In this document: positions 17,693 through 22,544 of the stretch, in pieces
Layout of the letters: every line of letters begins with the position of its first letter
Numbering within the stretch: position 1 is the stretch's first letter
Origin: Sphingomonadales bacterium
GTDB taxonomy: Bacteria > Pseudomonadota > Alphaproteobacteria > Sphingomonadales > Sphingomonadaceae
DNA: 64,000 nucleotides
Direction: 5' to 3'
NCBI GenBank assembly: GCA_017309275.1
Contig: JAFKLT010000045.1
Coordinates: 1-64,000, forward strand
Notes under the pieces: generated by a model
Told to the model about the DNA's origin: nothing
Databases searched by the model: none
Seen by the model: the letters and a program-made list of their open reading frames with translations, nothing else
Translations under genes and position numbers: made by a program

Positions 17693-18730
17693 TTACTGGT
17701 TCAGTCCGTGCTTCTTCAGCGCGTGGCGAATCTGGTCATAGCTCAGCCCCAGCGCTTCGGCCGCGACCTTCTGGTTGAAACGGCACCGCGCCATCGTGTC
17801 GGACAATATCTGCTTTTCATACGCATCGACCGCGGCGCGCAGGTCGCTGACCGCTCCCGTTTGCACCGCATGGGGGGTCGGCGCGGGCGCCGCGTCGCCT
17901 GCCTTCGCTGGCGCTGCGGCTTCGGTCGCCGCGGCCGTCTTTCGCGCCGCGGGCTGCCAGGGGCTGGCAAAGGGGTCGAAGCTCATGGCGTCGACGGGCC
18001 GTGTCGGATCCGCCCAGCGATAGATGGCGCGCTCGATCACATTGCGAAGTTCGCGGACATTGCCCGGCCAGTCGTGCCCTTCCATCGCCGCGAGTGCGCG
18101 CGGACCGAAGCCGGGCCACTCGTCCCAGTCGAGCACCGCTGCCATCCGCTGGCCGAAATAGGTGGCCAGAACCTCGATGTCGCCTTCGCGTGCGCGCAGC
18201 GGAGGGAGGGTGATCACTTCGAACGACAACCGGTCGAGCAGGTCGGCGCGGAACCGGTTCTCGTCGACCAGTGCGGGCAGATGTTCGTTGGTCGCCGCGA
18301 CGATTCGCACGTCGACACGGATCGGGCGCGACGCGCCGACGCGCGTGACCTCGCCATATTCGACCGCGCGCAACAGGCGTTCCTGCGCGCCCATCGACAT
18401 CGTCGCCAGTTCGTCGAGGAACAGCGTGCCGCCGTCGGCTTCCTCGAACCGTCCGGCGCGCGATTTGGTCGCGCCGGTAAAGGCGCCCGCTTCGTGCCCG
18501 AACAATTCGGATTCGATCAGCGTCTCGGGCATCGCGGCGCAGTTCAGGATCACATAGGGGCGGTCCCAGCGCGCCGACAGACGGTGGAGGCGCTCGGCGA
18601 TCAATTCCTTGCCGGTGCCGCGTTCGCCGATGACAAGGACCGGCCGGTCGAGCAGCGCGGCCTGGCTCGCGCGATCGACCGCGTCCTGAAAGGCCGCCGA
18701 CTGGCCGATGAACTGCGTTTCGCGTTCCAT
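17693..18730 (-). CDS. pspF: PspF-type sigma54 enhancer-binding activator
   Basis: 345 residues from ATG 18730 (a TTG at 18736 is in frame). No N-terminal receiver or sensor domain, as in E. coli PspF. The AAA+ domain has Walker A GERGTGKE, the sigma54-contact loop GAFTGA, a Walker B DGGTLFLDEL, and the R-finger region. A Pro/Ala linker (about residues 255-290) leads to a Fis-type HTH (CRFNQKVAAEALGLSYDQIRHAL). In E. coli PspA binds and inhibits PspF until the envelope is stressed. It lies divergent from the psp operon and next to its sigma54-type promoter. Confidence 0.93.
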   Translation of the reverse strand: MERETQFIGQSAAFQDAVDRASQAALLDRPVLVIGERGTGKELIAERLHRLSARWDRPYVILNCAAMPETLIESELFGHEAGAFTGATKSRAGRFEEADGGTLFLDELATMSMGAQERLLRAVEYGEVTRVGASRPIRVDVRIVAATNEHLPALVDENRFRADLLDRLSFEVITLPPLRAREGDIEVLATYFGQRMAAVLDWDEWPGFGPRALAAMEGHDWPGNVRELRNVIERAIYRWADPTRPVDAMSFDPFASPWQPAARKTAAATEAAAPAKAGDAAPAPTPHAVQTGAVSDLRAAVDAYEKQILSDTMARCRFNQKVAAEALGLSYDQIRHALKKHGLNQ

Positions 18731-18738
18731 TCCCAATC

Positions 18739-18830: not shown

Positions 18831-18846
18831 TGGCACGCCTCCTGCA
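18831..18846 (+). promoter_or_regulatory. Sigma54 (-24/-12) promoter of the psp operon
   Basis: TGGCAC-GCCTC-CTGCA matches the sigma54 consensus TGGCAC-N5-TTGCA in all but one position, with the required GG and GC ten bases apart. The expected start is near 18857, about 50 bases before the first small ORF. With pspF divergent this is the expected architecture. Confidence 0.85.
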
Positions 18847-18905: not shown

Positions 18906-19046
18906 ATGAAGACGATGTTTGCCCAGGCCGCCACCTTCGCGTTCAGCGCGGTCGGAGCGCTGGCCATCTTCGTCGGCGTGATCGACCAGCCTCAGGCGCT
19001 TTACGGCGCTGCTGCAGCAACCCCGGCGGTCAGCCAACTGGCCTGA
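18906..19046 (+). CDS. 46-residue hydrophobic protein at the head of the psp operon
   Basis: ATG 18906 with AGAAAGG seven bases upstream; TGA at 19044-19046. The product is 46 residues with a hydrophobic helix at about residues 7-26 (TFAFSAVGALAIFVGVI) and a short polar, Ala-rich tail. It is the first gene after the sigma54-type promoter and so the first product of the stress response. I recognise no family. SD quality, position and a sensible membrane-protein composition argue that it is real. It could be a membrane-stress effector or only a leader peptide. Confidence 0.6.
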   Translation: MKTMFAQAATFAFSAVGALAIFVGVIDQPQALYGAAAATPAVSQLA

Positions 19047-19134: not shown

Positions 19135-19797
19135 ATGGGTATTTTCTCACGAACCCGCGACATCATCGCCGCCAACGTCACCGATTTGCTCGACCGGGCG
19201 GAAGATCCTGAAAAGATGATCCGCCAGATCATCTTCGAGATGAACGAAACGCTCGTCGAAGTCCGCGCTTCCGCTGCCCGCACGATCGCGGACCAGAAGG
19301 AAATGCGGCGTCACATCGCCAAGCTCGACAGTCTGCAGGACAGCTGGAAGGAAAAGGCCGAACTCGCGCTGTCGAAGGACCGCGAAGATCTGGCCACCGC
19401 CGCGCTCGTCGAAAAGCAGAAGGCCGGCGAGATGGCCGAGAAGCTGAAGGCCGAGATCGCCGTCCTCGACGATGCGCTCAAGGGCTATGAAGACGATATC
19501 GCCAAGCTGCAGAAAAAGCTCAGCGAAGCGCGGACGCGTCAGGCGAGTGCGGCGAACCGCCTCGAAAGCGCCGAGAATCGCTACAAGCTTCGCGAAATGA
19601 CCAACGGCGACCGCGTCGAAGATGCCTTCTCGCGCTTCGAAATCCTCGAACGCCGCGTCGACGAGGCCGAGGGCCGCGCCGAAGCCGCCGGCCTCGGTTA
19701 CAAGAAGTCACTCGACGAGGAATTCGCCGAACTGCAGGCGGCCGACAAGGTTGCCGAAGAACTTGCCGCGCTGAAGGCGGCGCAGGGCAAGAACTAA
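19135..19797 (+). CDS. pspA: Phage shock protein A (PspA/IM30)
   Basis: 220 residues from ATG 19135 with AGGAG upstream. The N-terminal amphipathic helix GIFSRTRDIIAANVTDLLDRAEDPEKMIRQ binds stressed membranes. The rest is nearly all coiled coil (helices 2-5), rich in Glu, Lys, Ala and Arg. PspA oligomerises on the inner membrane (ESCRT-III-like) and, when free, holds PspF inactive. First canonical gene of the operon, with a 12-base gap to pspB. Confidence 0.95.
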   Translation: MGIFSRTRDIIAANVTDLLDRAEDPEKMIRQIIFEMNETLVEVRASAARTIADQKEMRRHIAKLDSLQDSWKEKAELALSKDREDLATAALVEKQKAGEMAEKLKAEIAVLDDALKGYEDDIAKLQKKLSEARTRQASAANRLESAENRYKLREMTNGDRVEDAFSRFEILERRVDEAEGRAEAAGLGYKKSLDEEFAELQAADKVAEELAALKAAQGKN

Positions 19798-19809: not shown

Positions 19810-20091
19810 ATGGAAGAGATCATCATCGTCCCGATCGTCATCGGCACCCTCTTCCTCGGTCTGCCTTGGCTGATCCTCCACTACATCACGAAGTGGAAGC
19901 AGGCCAAGACGCTGACCGGAGAGGACGAGCAGCTGCTCGACGAACTGTACGATACGGCGCGCCGGCTGGAAAATCGCCTGCACACCGTCGAACGTATCAT
20001 CAGCGCCGACCATCCCGACTTCCGCCCTGCGGTGCGGAGCGATGAAGAGCTGGCGCAACTGGAAAACAACAGCACGAGCCGGAGGAACTGA
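19810..20091 (+). CDS. pspB: Phage shock protein B
   Basis: 93 residues. TM helix at about 5-25 (IIVPIVIGTLFLGLPWLILHY), then a cytosolic coiled coil with RLHTVERIISADHPDFR (residues 56-72), the PspB family end signature. PspB and PspC relay membrane stress to PspA. It is longer than E. coli PspB by a polar tail of about 20 residues. Two bases separate its stop from the pspC start. The end signature recurs in the array proteins downstream. Confidence 0.9.
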   Translation: MEEIIIVPIVIGTLFLGLPWLILHYITKWKQAKTLTGEDEQLLDELYDTARRLENRLHTVERIISADHPDFRPAVRSDEELAQLENNSTSRRN

Positions 20092-20093
20092 AG

Positions 20094-20474
20094 ATGTCTG
20101 CCAGCCGCACAAAATTCTACCTCGACAAACAGAACGCCAAGTGGAGCGGTGTGTGCGCCGGGATCGCGGACTATAGCGGTATCGACGTATTGTGGGTCCG
20201 CGTCGGTGCGGTCCTCCTCACCCTGATGGGTGGCTTCCCCTGGACGCTGATCGCCTATTGGATGGTCGCCTGGATGGGAACGCCGAAGCCGTTCGCGCTC
20301 TATGGCTCGAGCGAGGAAGCGAAGTTCTGGCAGGGCGTTCGCTCGAACCCCAGCGCCTCGACCCGCGACATCCGCTCGCGCTTCCGCGACATCGACCGCC
20401 GGCTCGCCGACATCGAACTTTATTACACCAGCCACAACCGCCGCCTCGCCGACGAAATCGACGCGCTGCGCTGA
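20094..20474 (+). CDS. pspC: Phage shock protein C
   Basis: 126 residues. A PspC domain (FYLDKQNAKWSGVCAGIADYSGID) leads into hydrophobic segments at 32-60. The C-terminal half is a basic linker and a helix, RRLADIELYYT...DEIDALR (102-126). This end aligns with the ends of the small proteins encoded downstream (compare RLAVIERIVTD...HEIEALR). A sensor/partner of PspA at the inner membrane. An 8-bp hairpin follows the gene. Confidence 0.92.
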   Translation: MSASRTKFYLDKQNAKWSGVCAGIADYSGIDVLWVRVGAVLLTLMGGFPWTLIAYWMVAWMGTPKPFALYGSSEEAKFWQGVRSNPSASTRDIRSRFRDIDRRLADIELYYTSHNRRLADEIDALR

Positions 20475-20528: not shown

Positions 20529-20828
20529 ATGAATTTCGGTGGCTCCACCTTCGTCCTCGCCATCATCGCCCTGTCGATCGGCGGCTGGATGTTCACCACC
20601 TGGATCCGCGCGAAGCACGGCTATCCCGTTGAGAATGAATGGGGCGGCACGGTTCATCGAACCGACGTCGACGCTGATCGAAAAATCGCTCTGCTGACGG
20701 ACGACAATGCCAAGCTGGCAGGCCAGATCGGCCGGTTGGAGGAACGCATCTCGGTGCTCGAACGCATCGCGACCGAAACCAACGGCCAGGCGGCGCAGCT
20801 CGCCGACCAGATCGACCGCCTGCGCTGA
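20529..20828 (+). CDS. Psp array protein 1: PspB-like TM/coiled-coil protein
   Basis: 99 residues, AGGGAG SD. TM helix at 7-25 (TFVLAIIALSIGGWMFTTWI), a linker with AKHGYPVENEWGG, then a coiled coil. The end motif is RISVLERIATE (73-83) and DQIDRLR (93-99). Residues 18-40 match array protein 2 closely (GGW-FTTW-R-K-GYP-EN-W), so the two genes are a recent tandem duplication. Predicted inner-membrane protein with a cytosolic coiled coil. The likely partner is PspA or PspC, by operon and motif; not proven. Confidence 0.75.
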   Translation: MNFGGSTFVLAIIALSIGGWMFTTWIRAKHGYPVENEWGGTVHRTDVDADRKIALLTDDNAKLAGQIGRLEERISVLERIATETNGQAAQLADQIDRLR

Positions 20829-20841
20829 GAGGATAGATAGA

Positions 20842-21159
20842 ATGAATCTCGACGTTCTGAATACCATCGCCCCCGTCGCCGCGATCGTCGGCCTGGCCGG
20901 GGTCGGCGGGTGGGTCTTCACCACCTGGCTGCGCGTCAAGAACGGCTATCCGCTCGAAAACAGCTGGGGCAAGCCGATCTATCCGAAGACCAGCGACGAG
21001 GCGATGGAACGCGTCAAGCTGATCAGCCAGGAAAATGCCCAGCTGCGCGCCGAACTGGGTTCGGTGAAGGATCGCCTTGCGGTGATCGAGCGCATCGTCA
21101 CCGACGAGGGCCACCGGCTGAGCCACGAGATCGAGGCGCTGCGGCGCCCTGCAAACTAA
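20842..21159 (+). CDS. Psp array protein 2: PspB-like TM/coiled-coil protein
   Basis: 105 residues from ATG 20842, 13 bases after the previous stop, with GAGAGGAT about 10 bases upstream. TM helix at 8-29 (TIAPVAAIVGLAGVGGWVFTTW), linker VKNGYPLENSWGKPIYP, then a coiled coil with RLAVIERIVTD (78-88) and HEIEALR (95-101). Duplicate of array protein 1 by the shared TM-linker block. Its end is the closest match to the PspC tail. Confidence 0.75.
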   Translation: MNLDVLNTIAPVAAIVGLAGVGGWVFTTWLRVKNGYPLENSWGKPIYPKTSDEAMERVKLISQENAQLRAELGSVKDRLAVIERIVTDEGHRLSHEIEALRRPAN

Positions 21160-21171
21160 GGAAGACCTGTC

Positions 21172-21420
21172 ATGGGTGATGCCATCTGGATTTTGATCCC
21201 GCTCGCTCCCTTCATCCTCGGCGGCTTCGCCATCTGGTCGAAGCATCAGCAAAAGATGATCGAGAAGCAGTCCGAAATGACCGCCGAAAGGGCCGCGCAA
21301 TATGCGGCGCAGACTGAACGGCTCGAAGCGCGCGTCCGCGTTCTCGAACGCATCGTTACCGACAAGGGAATCGACGTGTCGACCGAGATCGAGAAGCTGC
21401 GCGACGCGCCGCTGAACTGA
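21172..21420 (+). CDS. Psp array protein 3: PspB-like TM/coiled-coil protein
   Basis: 82 residues, AAGGAAG SD. TM at 5-22 (IWILIPLAPFILGGFAIW), directly followed by a charged coiled coil (KHQQKMIEKQSEMTAERAAQ). End motif RVRVLERIVTD (54-64) and TEIEKLR (71-77). It lacks the GYP-EN-W linker of array proteins 1 and 2 and so resembles PspB most in size and layout. 12 bases after array gene 2. Confidence 0.72.
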   Translation: MGDAIWILIPLAPFILGGFAIWSKHQQKMIEKQSEMTAERAAQYAAQTERLEARVRVLERIVTDKGIDVSTEIEKLRDAPLN

Positions 21421-21448
21421 CAAGACAAGACCGAAAGGAGCCCGCCCC

Positions 21449-21718
21449 ATGAACCCCTTTGAAATGGTCATCGGCATCGTTCTGATCGTGACGATCGGCA
21501 GCATCGTCCGCGCCCGCCACGGCATCCGGCGCGACCGTCACGGTAACGAGTTTTTCGTCGGCAACACCGCCAACGATGCCGAAACCAAGGCGCTGCAGGC
21601 CGAAATCCGTGCGCTCAAGGACCGTATCCAGGTGCTCGAACGCATTGCGACCGACAACAATCGTGCCGTCTCGCTCGATCAGGAGATCGAGAGCCTGCGC
21701 GACCGGTCCCACCCCTGA
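21449..21718 (+). CDS. Psp array protein 4: PspB-like TM/coiled-coil protein
   Basis: 89 residues, AAAGGAG SD. TM at 4-20 (FEMVIGIVLIVTIGSIV), a basic stretch RARHGIRRDRHGNEFF on the cytosolic side, and a coiled coil with RIQVLERIATD (59-69) and QEIESLR (78-84). The RIQ-LE-I core is very close to the PspB end as I recall it from E. coli. 28 bases after array gene 3. Confidence 0.72.
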   Translation: MNPFEMVIGIVLIVTIGSIVRARHGIRRDRHGNEFFVGNTANDAETKALQAEIRALKDRIQVLERIATDNNRAVSLDQEIESLRDRSHP

Positions 21719-21745
21719 GTTTCGTGACGAAGAAGGAGCCTGATC

Positions 21746-22000
21746 ATGGCCGCCATCACTTCTGATCTTGCCACCAATCTGGTCACCGCGGCGGTCGCGC
21801 TGAGCGCCCTGATGATCGTCAGCCTCGCGGCGCTTCGCGGCTGGCGCGACTGGATCCAGCTCAAGCGCGAGGAACTTGCCGCCGGACATCTGCCGGCACA
21901 GGACCCCGCGGTGCCGCACGCCGGATCGCGCATCGAGATCGCCGACCTCAAGGAACGGCTGCGCAAGCTTGAAGCCATCGCTGCGGGGGTCGACCTCTAG
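21746..22000 (+). CDS. Psp array protein 5: divergent TM/coiled-coil protein
   Basis: 84 residues, AAGGAG SD. TM at 11-30 (NLVTAAVALSALMIVSLAAL), then an amphipathic stretch (GWRDWIQLKREEL), a Pro/Ala linker and a short helix IEIADLKERLRKLEAIAAG. RLRKLEAIAAG (71-81) is a degenerate version of the array motif, and the terminal [EQ]-I-[DE]-x-L-R part is absent. Last gene before the 19-bp hairpin that closes the operon. Confidence 0.65.
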   Translation: MAAITSDLATNLVTAAVALSALMIVSLAALRGWRDWIQLKREELAAGHLPAQDPAVPHAGSRIEIADLKERLRKLEAIAAGVDL

Positions 22001-22133: not shown

Positions 22134-22544
22134 ATGCGCAGCCTCGACGACATCTTCGAAGAATATGACTTTCTCGACGGCGACGATCGCTATCGCCTGC
22201 TGATCGAGCTTGGCCGCGATCTGGAGCCGATGCCCGACGCGCTGAAGACCGACGCGACGCTGGTGCGTGGATGCAGCGCCAGCGTCTGGGTCTATCCCGT
22301 GCCGCAAGACGATGGCCGGCTGCACTTCCTGGCCGACAGCAATGCTGCGATCACCAAGGGGATCGTCGCCCTGGTGCTCGCCGCGGTACAGGACCAGCCC
22401 GCCGCCGAGGTGGCTGCTATGGACGTCGCCGCCGCGCTCGCGCCCTTCGATCTGACGCGCCAGCTCTCGTCGAACCGCACGCAGGGCGTCCCCAACATGA
22501 TCGCGCTGGTACAGGACACCGCCCGTCGCCTCGCCGCGGGCTGA
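22134..22544 (+). CDS. sufE: SufE-family cysteine desulfuration protein
   Basis: 136 residues from ATG 22134 with AAGGGG upstream. SufE accepts the persulfide from SufS and passes it to the Fe-S scaffold. The acceptor Cys47 lies in LVRGCSASVW. The first helix DDIFEEYDFLDGDDRYRLLIELG and the C-terminal LSSNRTQGVPNMI are family signatures. It follows the psp array after a 133-base gap with a strong hairpin, so it probably has its own promoter. No suf operon is in the window. Confidence 0.92.
   Translation: MRSLDDIFEEYDFLDGDDRYRLLIELGRDLEPMPDALKTDATLVRGCSASVWVYPVPQDDGRLHFLADSNAAITKGIVALVLAAVQDQPAAEVAAMDVAAALAPFDLTRQLSSNRTQGVPNMIALVQDTARRLAAG

Follow-up and report, generated by a model that had tools for sequence, protein, structure and literature searches.

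Arrays of small PspB-like membrane proteins with ends resembling the PspC tail behind the psp genes of Sphingomonadaceae

It has long been asked how membrane damage is sensed by PspB and PspC in the Psp response. In E. coli, residues 40-119 and the leucine zipper of PspC are required for contact with PspA, and PspB meets PspC via the membrane part (PMC3068692; statements on this and the other cited sources refer to the available part of each text). When the Yersinia system is on, PspA is bound by the C-terminal, cytoplasmic domain of PspC, and PspF is thereby released (PMC5596341). Ravi et al. (2024) note duplicated copies of PspB within the operon, citing AOL22920.1, and describe fusions of PspC with a divergent PspB at the C-terminus (PMC11237479). 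Here we describe a stretch of 64,000 nucleotides from a Sphingomonadales bacterium of the family Sphingomonadaceae (contig JAFKLT010000045.1 of assembly GCA_017309275.1, positions 1 to 64,000; called the window), in which pspA, pspB and pspC are followed by an array of five small genes, a1 to a5. Following up an earlier interpretation of this DNA made without database searches (the sequence-only reading), we find that the array is conserved throughout the sampled family and that its proteins, a5 excepted, appear to join a PspB-like front to an end like the PspC tail.

The array genes of the window are listed below, with the median ratio of nonsynonymous to synonymous substitution (dN/dS) within the window's genus.

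20529..20828, + strand: a1, array protein of 99 amino acids, class 3 in the protein clustering; dN/dS 0.153.
20842..21159, + strand: a2, array protein of 105 amino acids, predicted transmembrane (TM) helix 3-33 and long helix 51-101; dN/dS 0.239.
21172..21420, + strand: a3, array protein of 82 amino acids, its N-terminal half one of two alternative types.
21449..21718, + strand: a4, array protein of 89 amino acids; dN/dS 0.259.
21746..22000, + strand: a5, array protein of 84 amino acids with a near-invariant C-terminus; dN/dS 0.162.

For a2 a longer frame from 20707 exists, and the start at 20842 was picked from the Shine-Dalgarno (SD) sequence and the orthologues. The sequence-only reading had described five small genes 3' of pspA-pspB-pspC, tightly spaced with good SD sequences, each product having one N-terminal TM helix and a coiled coil, and this description holds. 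The gaps within the array are 13, 12, 28 and 27 bases and carry SD-like sequences, and the hydrophobic-segment scan gave a single N-terminal segment for each protein (19-residue Kyte-Doolittle (KD) mean 1.83-2.45), followed by a coiled-coil-like part. The motifs R-x-x-V-[LI]-E-R-I-[AV]-T-[DE] and [EQ]-I-[DE]-x-L-R occur in a1-a4 exactly as they had been given.

Orthologues and selection rule out that the array consists of chance open reading frames (ORFs). A search with a2 found a match in 17 of the 18 other genomes of the window's genus, 16 of them clear a2 orthologues; the remaining genome, G018 (85% complete, 7% contaminated), had neither an a2 nor a PspA match. The sole match in G009 (locus L019; 550 contigs, 88% complete) was one ORF with an a1-like start and an a4-like end, followed by a5. 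This ORF (1477-1788 of L019, reverse-complemented) may reflect a contraction of the array by recombination, and it is a possible artefact because the draft assembly consists of 550 contigs. The full order a1-a5 was present in the window and in L003-L017, which makes 16 loci (15 of the 18 other genus genomes), and L018 lacked a4. Selection was measured on those 16 genomes, leaving out L018 and L019. The median dN/dS of a3 was 0.117 and 0.254 for its two types taken apart, and 0.403 when they were pooled, so that the medians of the five genes range from 0.117 to 0.259. These values indicate purifying selection on all five array genes; a lack of such selection in relatives, which the sequence-only reading had named as a refutation, is not seen. 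That reading had also taken a5 to be a decayed form of the others. This was wrong, because the C-terminus of a5 is nearly invariant, its last 24 residues (SRIEIADLKERLRKLEAIAAGVDL) being identical or almost so in 18 of 18 genus sequences, and because its dN/dS is as low as 0.162. Beyond the genus, a5 was present in 36 of 40 family loci.

The genes a1-a4 are paralogues with a common C-terminal helix (mutual BLASTP E 2e-25 to 1e-5 in a seven-protein database). The sequence-only reading called the products PspB-like. An expanded, conserved set related to PspB was indeed found, but its members are not plain PspB copies, as their conserved end is PspC-like. In profile-profile alignments (hhalign), the array matched PspB from the 20 non-family loci at 96% (E 4.6e-9), covering the TM segment and the helix; over 43 columns reaching the PspC C-terminus, it matched other-family PspC at 73% (E 3.1e-5). 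The values for PspA and SufE were 1.5% and 0.2%. The most conserved array columns fall in the part common to PspC and PspB. On these alignments the array proteins appear to be hybrids, PspB-like in front and like the PspC tail at the end. The window members fail the PspB cut-offs, whereas array genes of two relatives pass the Pfam one (PF06667, 25.6 bits), with 32.8 bits in G099 (L042) and 27.2 bits in G135 (L048). The best PspB scores in the window were those of a3, 19.4 bits against a cut-off of 51.7 for TIGR02976 and 13.7 against 25.6 for PF06667; a3 also matched positions 72-121 of the PspC family TIGR02978 weakly (E 5.4e-4; TIGR02976, E 9.3e-4). Among 14 diverse array members, TIGR02978 was matched at E<=0.1 by nine (best 7e-5), TIGR02976 by six (best 1.7e-7) and PF06667 by five, and a1-a5 gave zero matches to the PspC domain PF04024. 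On profile alignment a5 appears akin to a1-a4 (94%, E 1.4e-7 against the array profile), and not measurably to PspB or PspC.

Chance likeness among coiled coils was considered as a source of these matches. The 4,789 six-frame ORFs of 60 loci were scanned at E<10 with a profile built from 163 array proteins of the family, a scan in which HMMER filters may lose weak matches and strong ones had been pre-labelled by an earlier array profile. The profile matched all 36 a5 proteins, 50 of the 64 PspC, 44 of the 61 PspB and one of the 60 PspA, and among the 4,789 it matched no ORF outside the labelled genes. The explanation is weakened because the profile spares unlabelled ORFs and matches PspA only once; it persists for the Pfam bZIP and ZapB matches that are given below.

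The predicted topology is that of PspB, with a single N-terminal TM helix and a helical C-terminal domain in the cytoplasm. A strong N-terminal TM segment (KD>=1.6) was found in 157 of 163 family array proteins, and 161 of 163 had more lysine and arginine behind the TM segment than before it, as had 40 of 40 PspB. A model of a2 from 43 sequences (mean pLDDT 77, pTM 0.34) shows helix 3-33, a linker holding a conserved GYPLE..WG stretch, and helix 51-101. A search of solved structures found nothing convincing, the best hit being a prefoldin (E 0.0099). The PspC model was poor (mean pLDDT 58) and was not used.

Of 147 genomes of the order, 140 had a PspB match; the window's family accounts for 84 of these, the window's own genome included. 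We fetched 60 psp loci, 20 of 56 from other families of the order and 40 from the family (from a pool of 83 genomes, the window's excluded, with at least one per genus code with a PspB match and four from the window's genus). Gene starts in all fetched loci were called by a score preferring small gaps. The array lies behind pspC in 40 of 40 family loci, all of which bear pspB. Counting a5, one locus has a single array gene, three have 3, nine have 4, thirteen have 5, ten have 6 and four have 7. In the other families an array-type gene was seen in 3 of 20 loci (L088, L090 and L091, all of one family), where a second, short PspC-domain gene is followed by a single a4-like gene. These single proteins are 35-43% identical by eye and form small clusters of their own. 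One further locus (L081) has a second PspB, and no array gene was seen in the remaining loci of the 20, among which L074 is truncated by the contig end.

A class-wide search of 289 genomes, in which at most 18 first-look candidates were scored in most genomes, gave 12 genomes with a match at E<=0.001, five in the family and seven outside. Only G312, from another alphaproteobacterial family, had a strong match among those seven (E 2.9e-13), with a weaker second match adjoining. Its a4-like gene (L172, 2979-3209, - strand) adjoins dut and coaBC, both named by eye. In G366 and G434, from another alphaproteobacterial family, the weak match is an additional PspB-like gene of the psp operon (L173 and L174), in the order pspA, pspB, short PspC, second PspB-like gene, full pspC, and probably reflects an independent duplication of PspB.

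Named loci were taken from the best 80 of at least 378 a2 matches; they were picked by their a2 and thus give no measure of frequency. Array and a5 were present in 80 of these 80, among whose holders are Sphingopyxis, Sphingobium, Sphingomonas, Novosphingobium, Blastomonas, Rhizorhabdus, Sandarakinorhabdus, Chakrabartia and Sphingorhabdus. Among the a2 matches listed, the closest named relatives of the window's genome are Sphingopyxis, the genus to which it appears to belong. AOL22920.1, judging by its accession series, is presumably from an Erythrobacter genome. In the one annotated record examined, pspC and sufE are separated by four genes, each named hypothetical protein, and only the first of them was matched here, by a2. 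As to plasmids, one record has the entire psp operon on an 880 kb replicon.

The proteins fall into classes with a preferred order. When 207 proteins were clustered (5 from the window, 3 from other families and 199 from the 40 family loci), the largest group was an a3-seeded cluster of 46, followed by clusters of 37 for a5, 36 for a2, 28 for a1 and 18 for a4. A second class at the a4 position had 13 members, small clusters had 6, 2 and 2, and 19 proteins stayed unclassed. By best match to the window proteins, the order a1-a2-a3-a4-a5 is kept in 41 of the 80 named loci. Within the window's genus, a3 occurs with two N-terminal types that are 20% identical, set on C-terminal halves that are 92% identical, and Sphingopyxis indica (L113) has both types in tandem. 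Variation lies in the membrane part, and the end, predicted to be cytoplasmic, is kept. From pspC through a5 the median gap is 13 bases, with 193 of 199 gaps at or below 60 bases and 68 overlaps of 1 or 4, numbers to be read with the preference of the start calling for small gaps. In L056, L058, L059, L063 and L065, several array proteins have a terminal tail like SGVPLN..KER[AV], whose KER codons may serve also as the SD sequence of the overlapping next gene.

G063 and G139 are genomes of the family that lack a PspB match yet retain pspA and the array. In G063, which is 100% complete, pspA is followed by an 88-residue PspC that ends before the tail, an a3-like gene and an a4-like gene, with no a5 and no sufE detected behind the array genes. 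The whole genome has one PspC-domain match and no PspB above cut-off, the best PspB score being that of the a4-like array gene. Upstream of pspA in G063 is an exact -24/-12 match, which is weak evidence alone because a scan tolerating one mismatch gave 2 matches against a chance expectation of 1.35. In G139, pspB is gone and a pspC with its tail is followed by three array genes. Elsewhere, tail-less short PspC proteins are found alongside a full pspC; they adjoin the array gene in L088, L090 and L091, and lie between pspB and pspC in L060, L132 and L156.

In the window, the gene string opposite pspF runs from a -24/-12 site through ORF0, pspA, pspB, pspC and a1-a5 to sufE. The features around the array are as follows.

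17693..18736, - strand: pspF, divergent activator of 347 amino acids, named by eye from its sequence and place.
18831..18846, + strand: predicted -24/-12 (sigma54) promoter TGGCACGCCTCCTGCA, exact pattern match.
18906..19046, + strand: ORF0, 46 amino acids, hydrophobic and signal-peptide-like, between the -24/-12 site and pspA.
19135..19797, + strand: pspA (TIGR02977, 267.6 bits, above cut-off).
19810..20091, + strand: pspB (PF06667, 97.8 bits; TIGR02976, 91.2 bits; both above cut-off).
20094..20474, + strand: pspC, with C-terminal tail RLADIELYYTSHNRRLADEIDALR (TIGR02978, 116.7 bits, above cut-off).
22134..22544, + strand: sufE, conserved neighbour 3' of the array and possible operon end (PF02657, 117.3 bits).

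A Sphingomonas record has pspF annotated at the equivalent place. The start of pspA was placed at the MGIFSR motif. ORF0 gave nothing over cut-off in Pfam and NCBIfam profile scans; short ORFs resembling it by eye lie upstream of pspA in many relatives, and its position in NZ_CP155749 (Sphingomonas parapaucimobilis) is an annotated hypothetical protein. In 37 of the 40 family loci, sufE is found no more than 400 bases from the array; an iron-sulphur helper here sits behind a membrane-stress operon.

The site TGGCACGCCTCCTGCA is the sole exact -24/-12 match in the 64 kb window, with 0.21 expected by chance. Of the 80 named loci 74 were testable, and 53 of these have the strict pattern in the 400 bases before pspA, compared with 0.19% in base shuffles, while 65 have a looser pattern (counted by eye, without a shuffle control). 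Between pspB and a5 the strict sigma54 pattern occurs in 0 of 80 loci. One sigma54 operon would be the simplest reading, and gene order and spacing support the earlier claim that the array extends the psp operon. A conserved hairpin in the 54-base gap between pspC and a1 was tried as a further element and dropped; its energy is -22.9 kcal/mol in the window and about -21 to 0 in the related loci inspected, with differing sequence, and only the SD region (GCAACAGGGAGA) is common to related loci by eye.

We propose, with a probability of roughly 0.55, that the array proteins are co-induced inner-membrane Psp adaptors with varied anchors and a common tail for docking PspA or PspBC. Each protein would be anchored, as PspB, by one N-terminal TM helix with the N-terminus out and the C-terminus in, and its cytoplasmic helix would be PspB-like in its first part and like the PspC C-terminal tail at its end. 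Induction would be shared with PspA and driven by the sigma54 (PspF) promoter. The proposal builds on the conservation and selection of the array, its order and spacing, its hybrid homology, the topology predicted for it, the swapped TM half of a3, the persistence of array genes by pspA where pspB and the PspC tail are gone, and the published contacts of PspC with PspA. As the array proteins carry a PspC-like tail on anchors of their own, we take them to be PspA docking points and/or partners of the PspB and PspC tails, and the common tails might bind PspA, pair with those tails, or do both. PspA would thereby be pulled off PspF and concentrated at the membrane, and the differing TM and juxtamembrane parts would let separate membrane conditions or sites feed the same output. 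A bolder form of this proposal is that the PspBC sensor has been unbundled, the PspA-binding tail of PspC being carried on variable separate TM anchors as interchangeable sensors that steer one PspA pool, and that in at least one genome (G063) the set replaced PspB and the PspC tail. We regard this form as tentative, at somewhat less than even odds.

Several observations weigh against the adaptor proposal. The proteins a1-a5 are below every Pfam and NCBIfam cut-off, those of PspB and PspC included, and a5 gave no match to the PspB and PspC profiles (1.7-1.8%). A profile of 14 rows places the window's PspC tail right below four array genes, yet at E 0.076. Coiled-coil composition by itself gives weak matches, since 43 a2 proteins matched bZIP_1 in 38 cases and ZapB in 33 (E<=0.1). 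Selection on the array is weaker than that on pspB and pspC, whose median dN/dS values are 0.064 and 0.070 (sufE, 0.105). The lone a4-like gene of G312 is about 80 kb from the pspA of its genome, and therefore this protein type can exist outside a psp operon. In G063, pspF does not adjoin pspA, which leaves control by PspF at that locus unproved. In E. coli, the end of PspC is putatively periplasmic, with two possible topologies or a switch between them (PMC3068692).

In the strongest alternative, the array proteins build a single hetero-oligomeric membrane scaffold together with PspB and PspC, a joint effector in which each class has a fixed place, and do not act as separate inputs. The retention of distinct classes, the order kept in about half of the named loci, the tight spacing with its overlaps (as far as the start calling allows) and the long helix predicted for a2 are all in keeping with it. 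However, a locus may have as few as 1 or as many as 7 array genes, the a1 class is missing in 14 of 40 loci and 19 of the 207 proteins are unclassed, and such variation is a poor fit to a fixed stoichiometry. We regard a scaffold as unlikely, though it deserves more weight than the remaining explanations.

It is improbable, in our view, that the array proteins are negative modulators whose tails compete with PspC for PspA, or hold PspC off, and so damp the response. A 2015 JBC paper is said to report that PspB-CT and PspA compete for PspC-CT. The array tails resemble the PspC tail, and the Yersinia PspBC toggles between off and on states (PMC5596341). Against damping, the array is kept in the two genomes where pspB, or pspB and the PspC tail, were lost, which fits a supplying role better. 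The least probable explanation is that the array proteins have a different task at the membrane, perhaps with SufE or in outer-membrane biogenesis, that they share the operon only to be co-induced, and that their likeness to PspB and PspC is an old one without present function; the sufE gene behind most arrays and the lone gene of G312 would suit it, but the most conserved columns lie in the part common to PspC and PspB, the array stays by pspA after loss of pspB, and L176 has no sufE directly behind.

If the array proteins are adaptors, the array may give one stress response several membrane inputs. Natural hybrids of PspB and the PspC tail, together with genomes that lost pspB or the tail, allow direct tests of which part senses and which docks PspA. 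The sequence-only reading knew of no described function for such an array. None was found among the open-access papers that our searches listed, although the array is not wholly unmentioned there (PMC11237479). It is not mentioned in the available part of Popp et al. 2022 (PMC9239133), and the main text of a study of stress in Sphingopyxis (PMC7083833) does not mention psp. A Zymomonas review reports PspA, PspB and PspC under stress and, in the part available, names no array. Neither the array as a feature of the whole family nor its classes, its PspC-like tail, a5 or the cases of loss came up in the open-access papers listed.

The PspB duplicates of Ravi et al. are probably the same phenomenon; their main text, in the part available, gives them a single clause, without classes, tail homology, a family-wide count, a5 or loss cases (PMC11237479). 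Their fusion of PspC to PspB reads the end of PspC as PspB-like, which agrees with the hybrid nature suggested here; there the parts are fused, whereas the sphingomonad array is free-standing and multiplied (PMC11237479). PspM (NF047839) was matched weakly by a5 (E 0.0063, 16.5 bits against a cut-off of 80), and a5 is not a member of that family. With PspB (TIGR02976, PF06667) the array proteins share one N-terminal TM helix, a cytoplasmic helix, an RLxxRLxxLERI-like core and a place in the psp gene string, but they continue into a PspC-like end and form several diverged classes per genome. With the C-terminal domain of PspC (TIGR02978, about 72-121) they share, a5 excepted, the 43 columns aligned up to the PspC end; unlike PspC, they have no PspC domain (PF04024) and carry the tail on a separate TM anchor.

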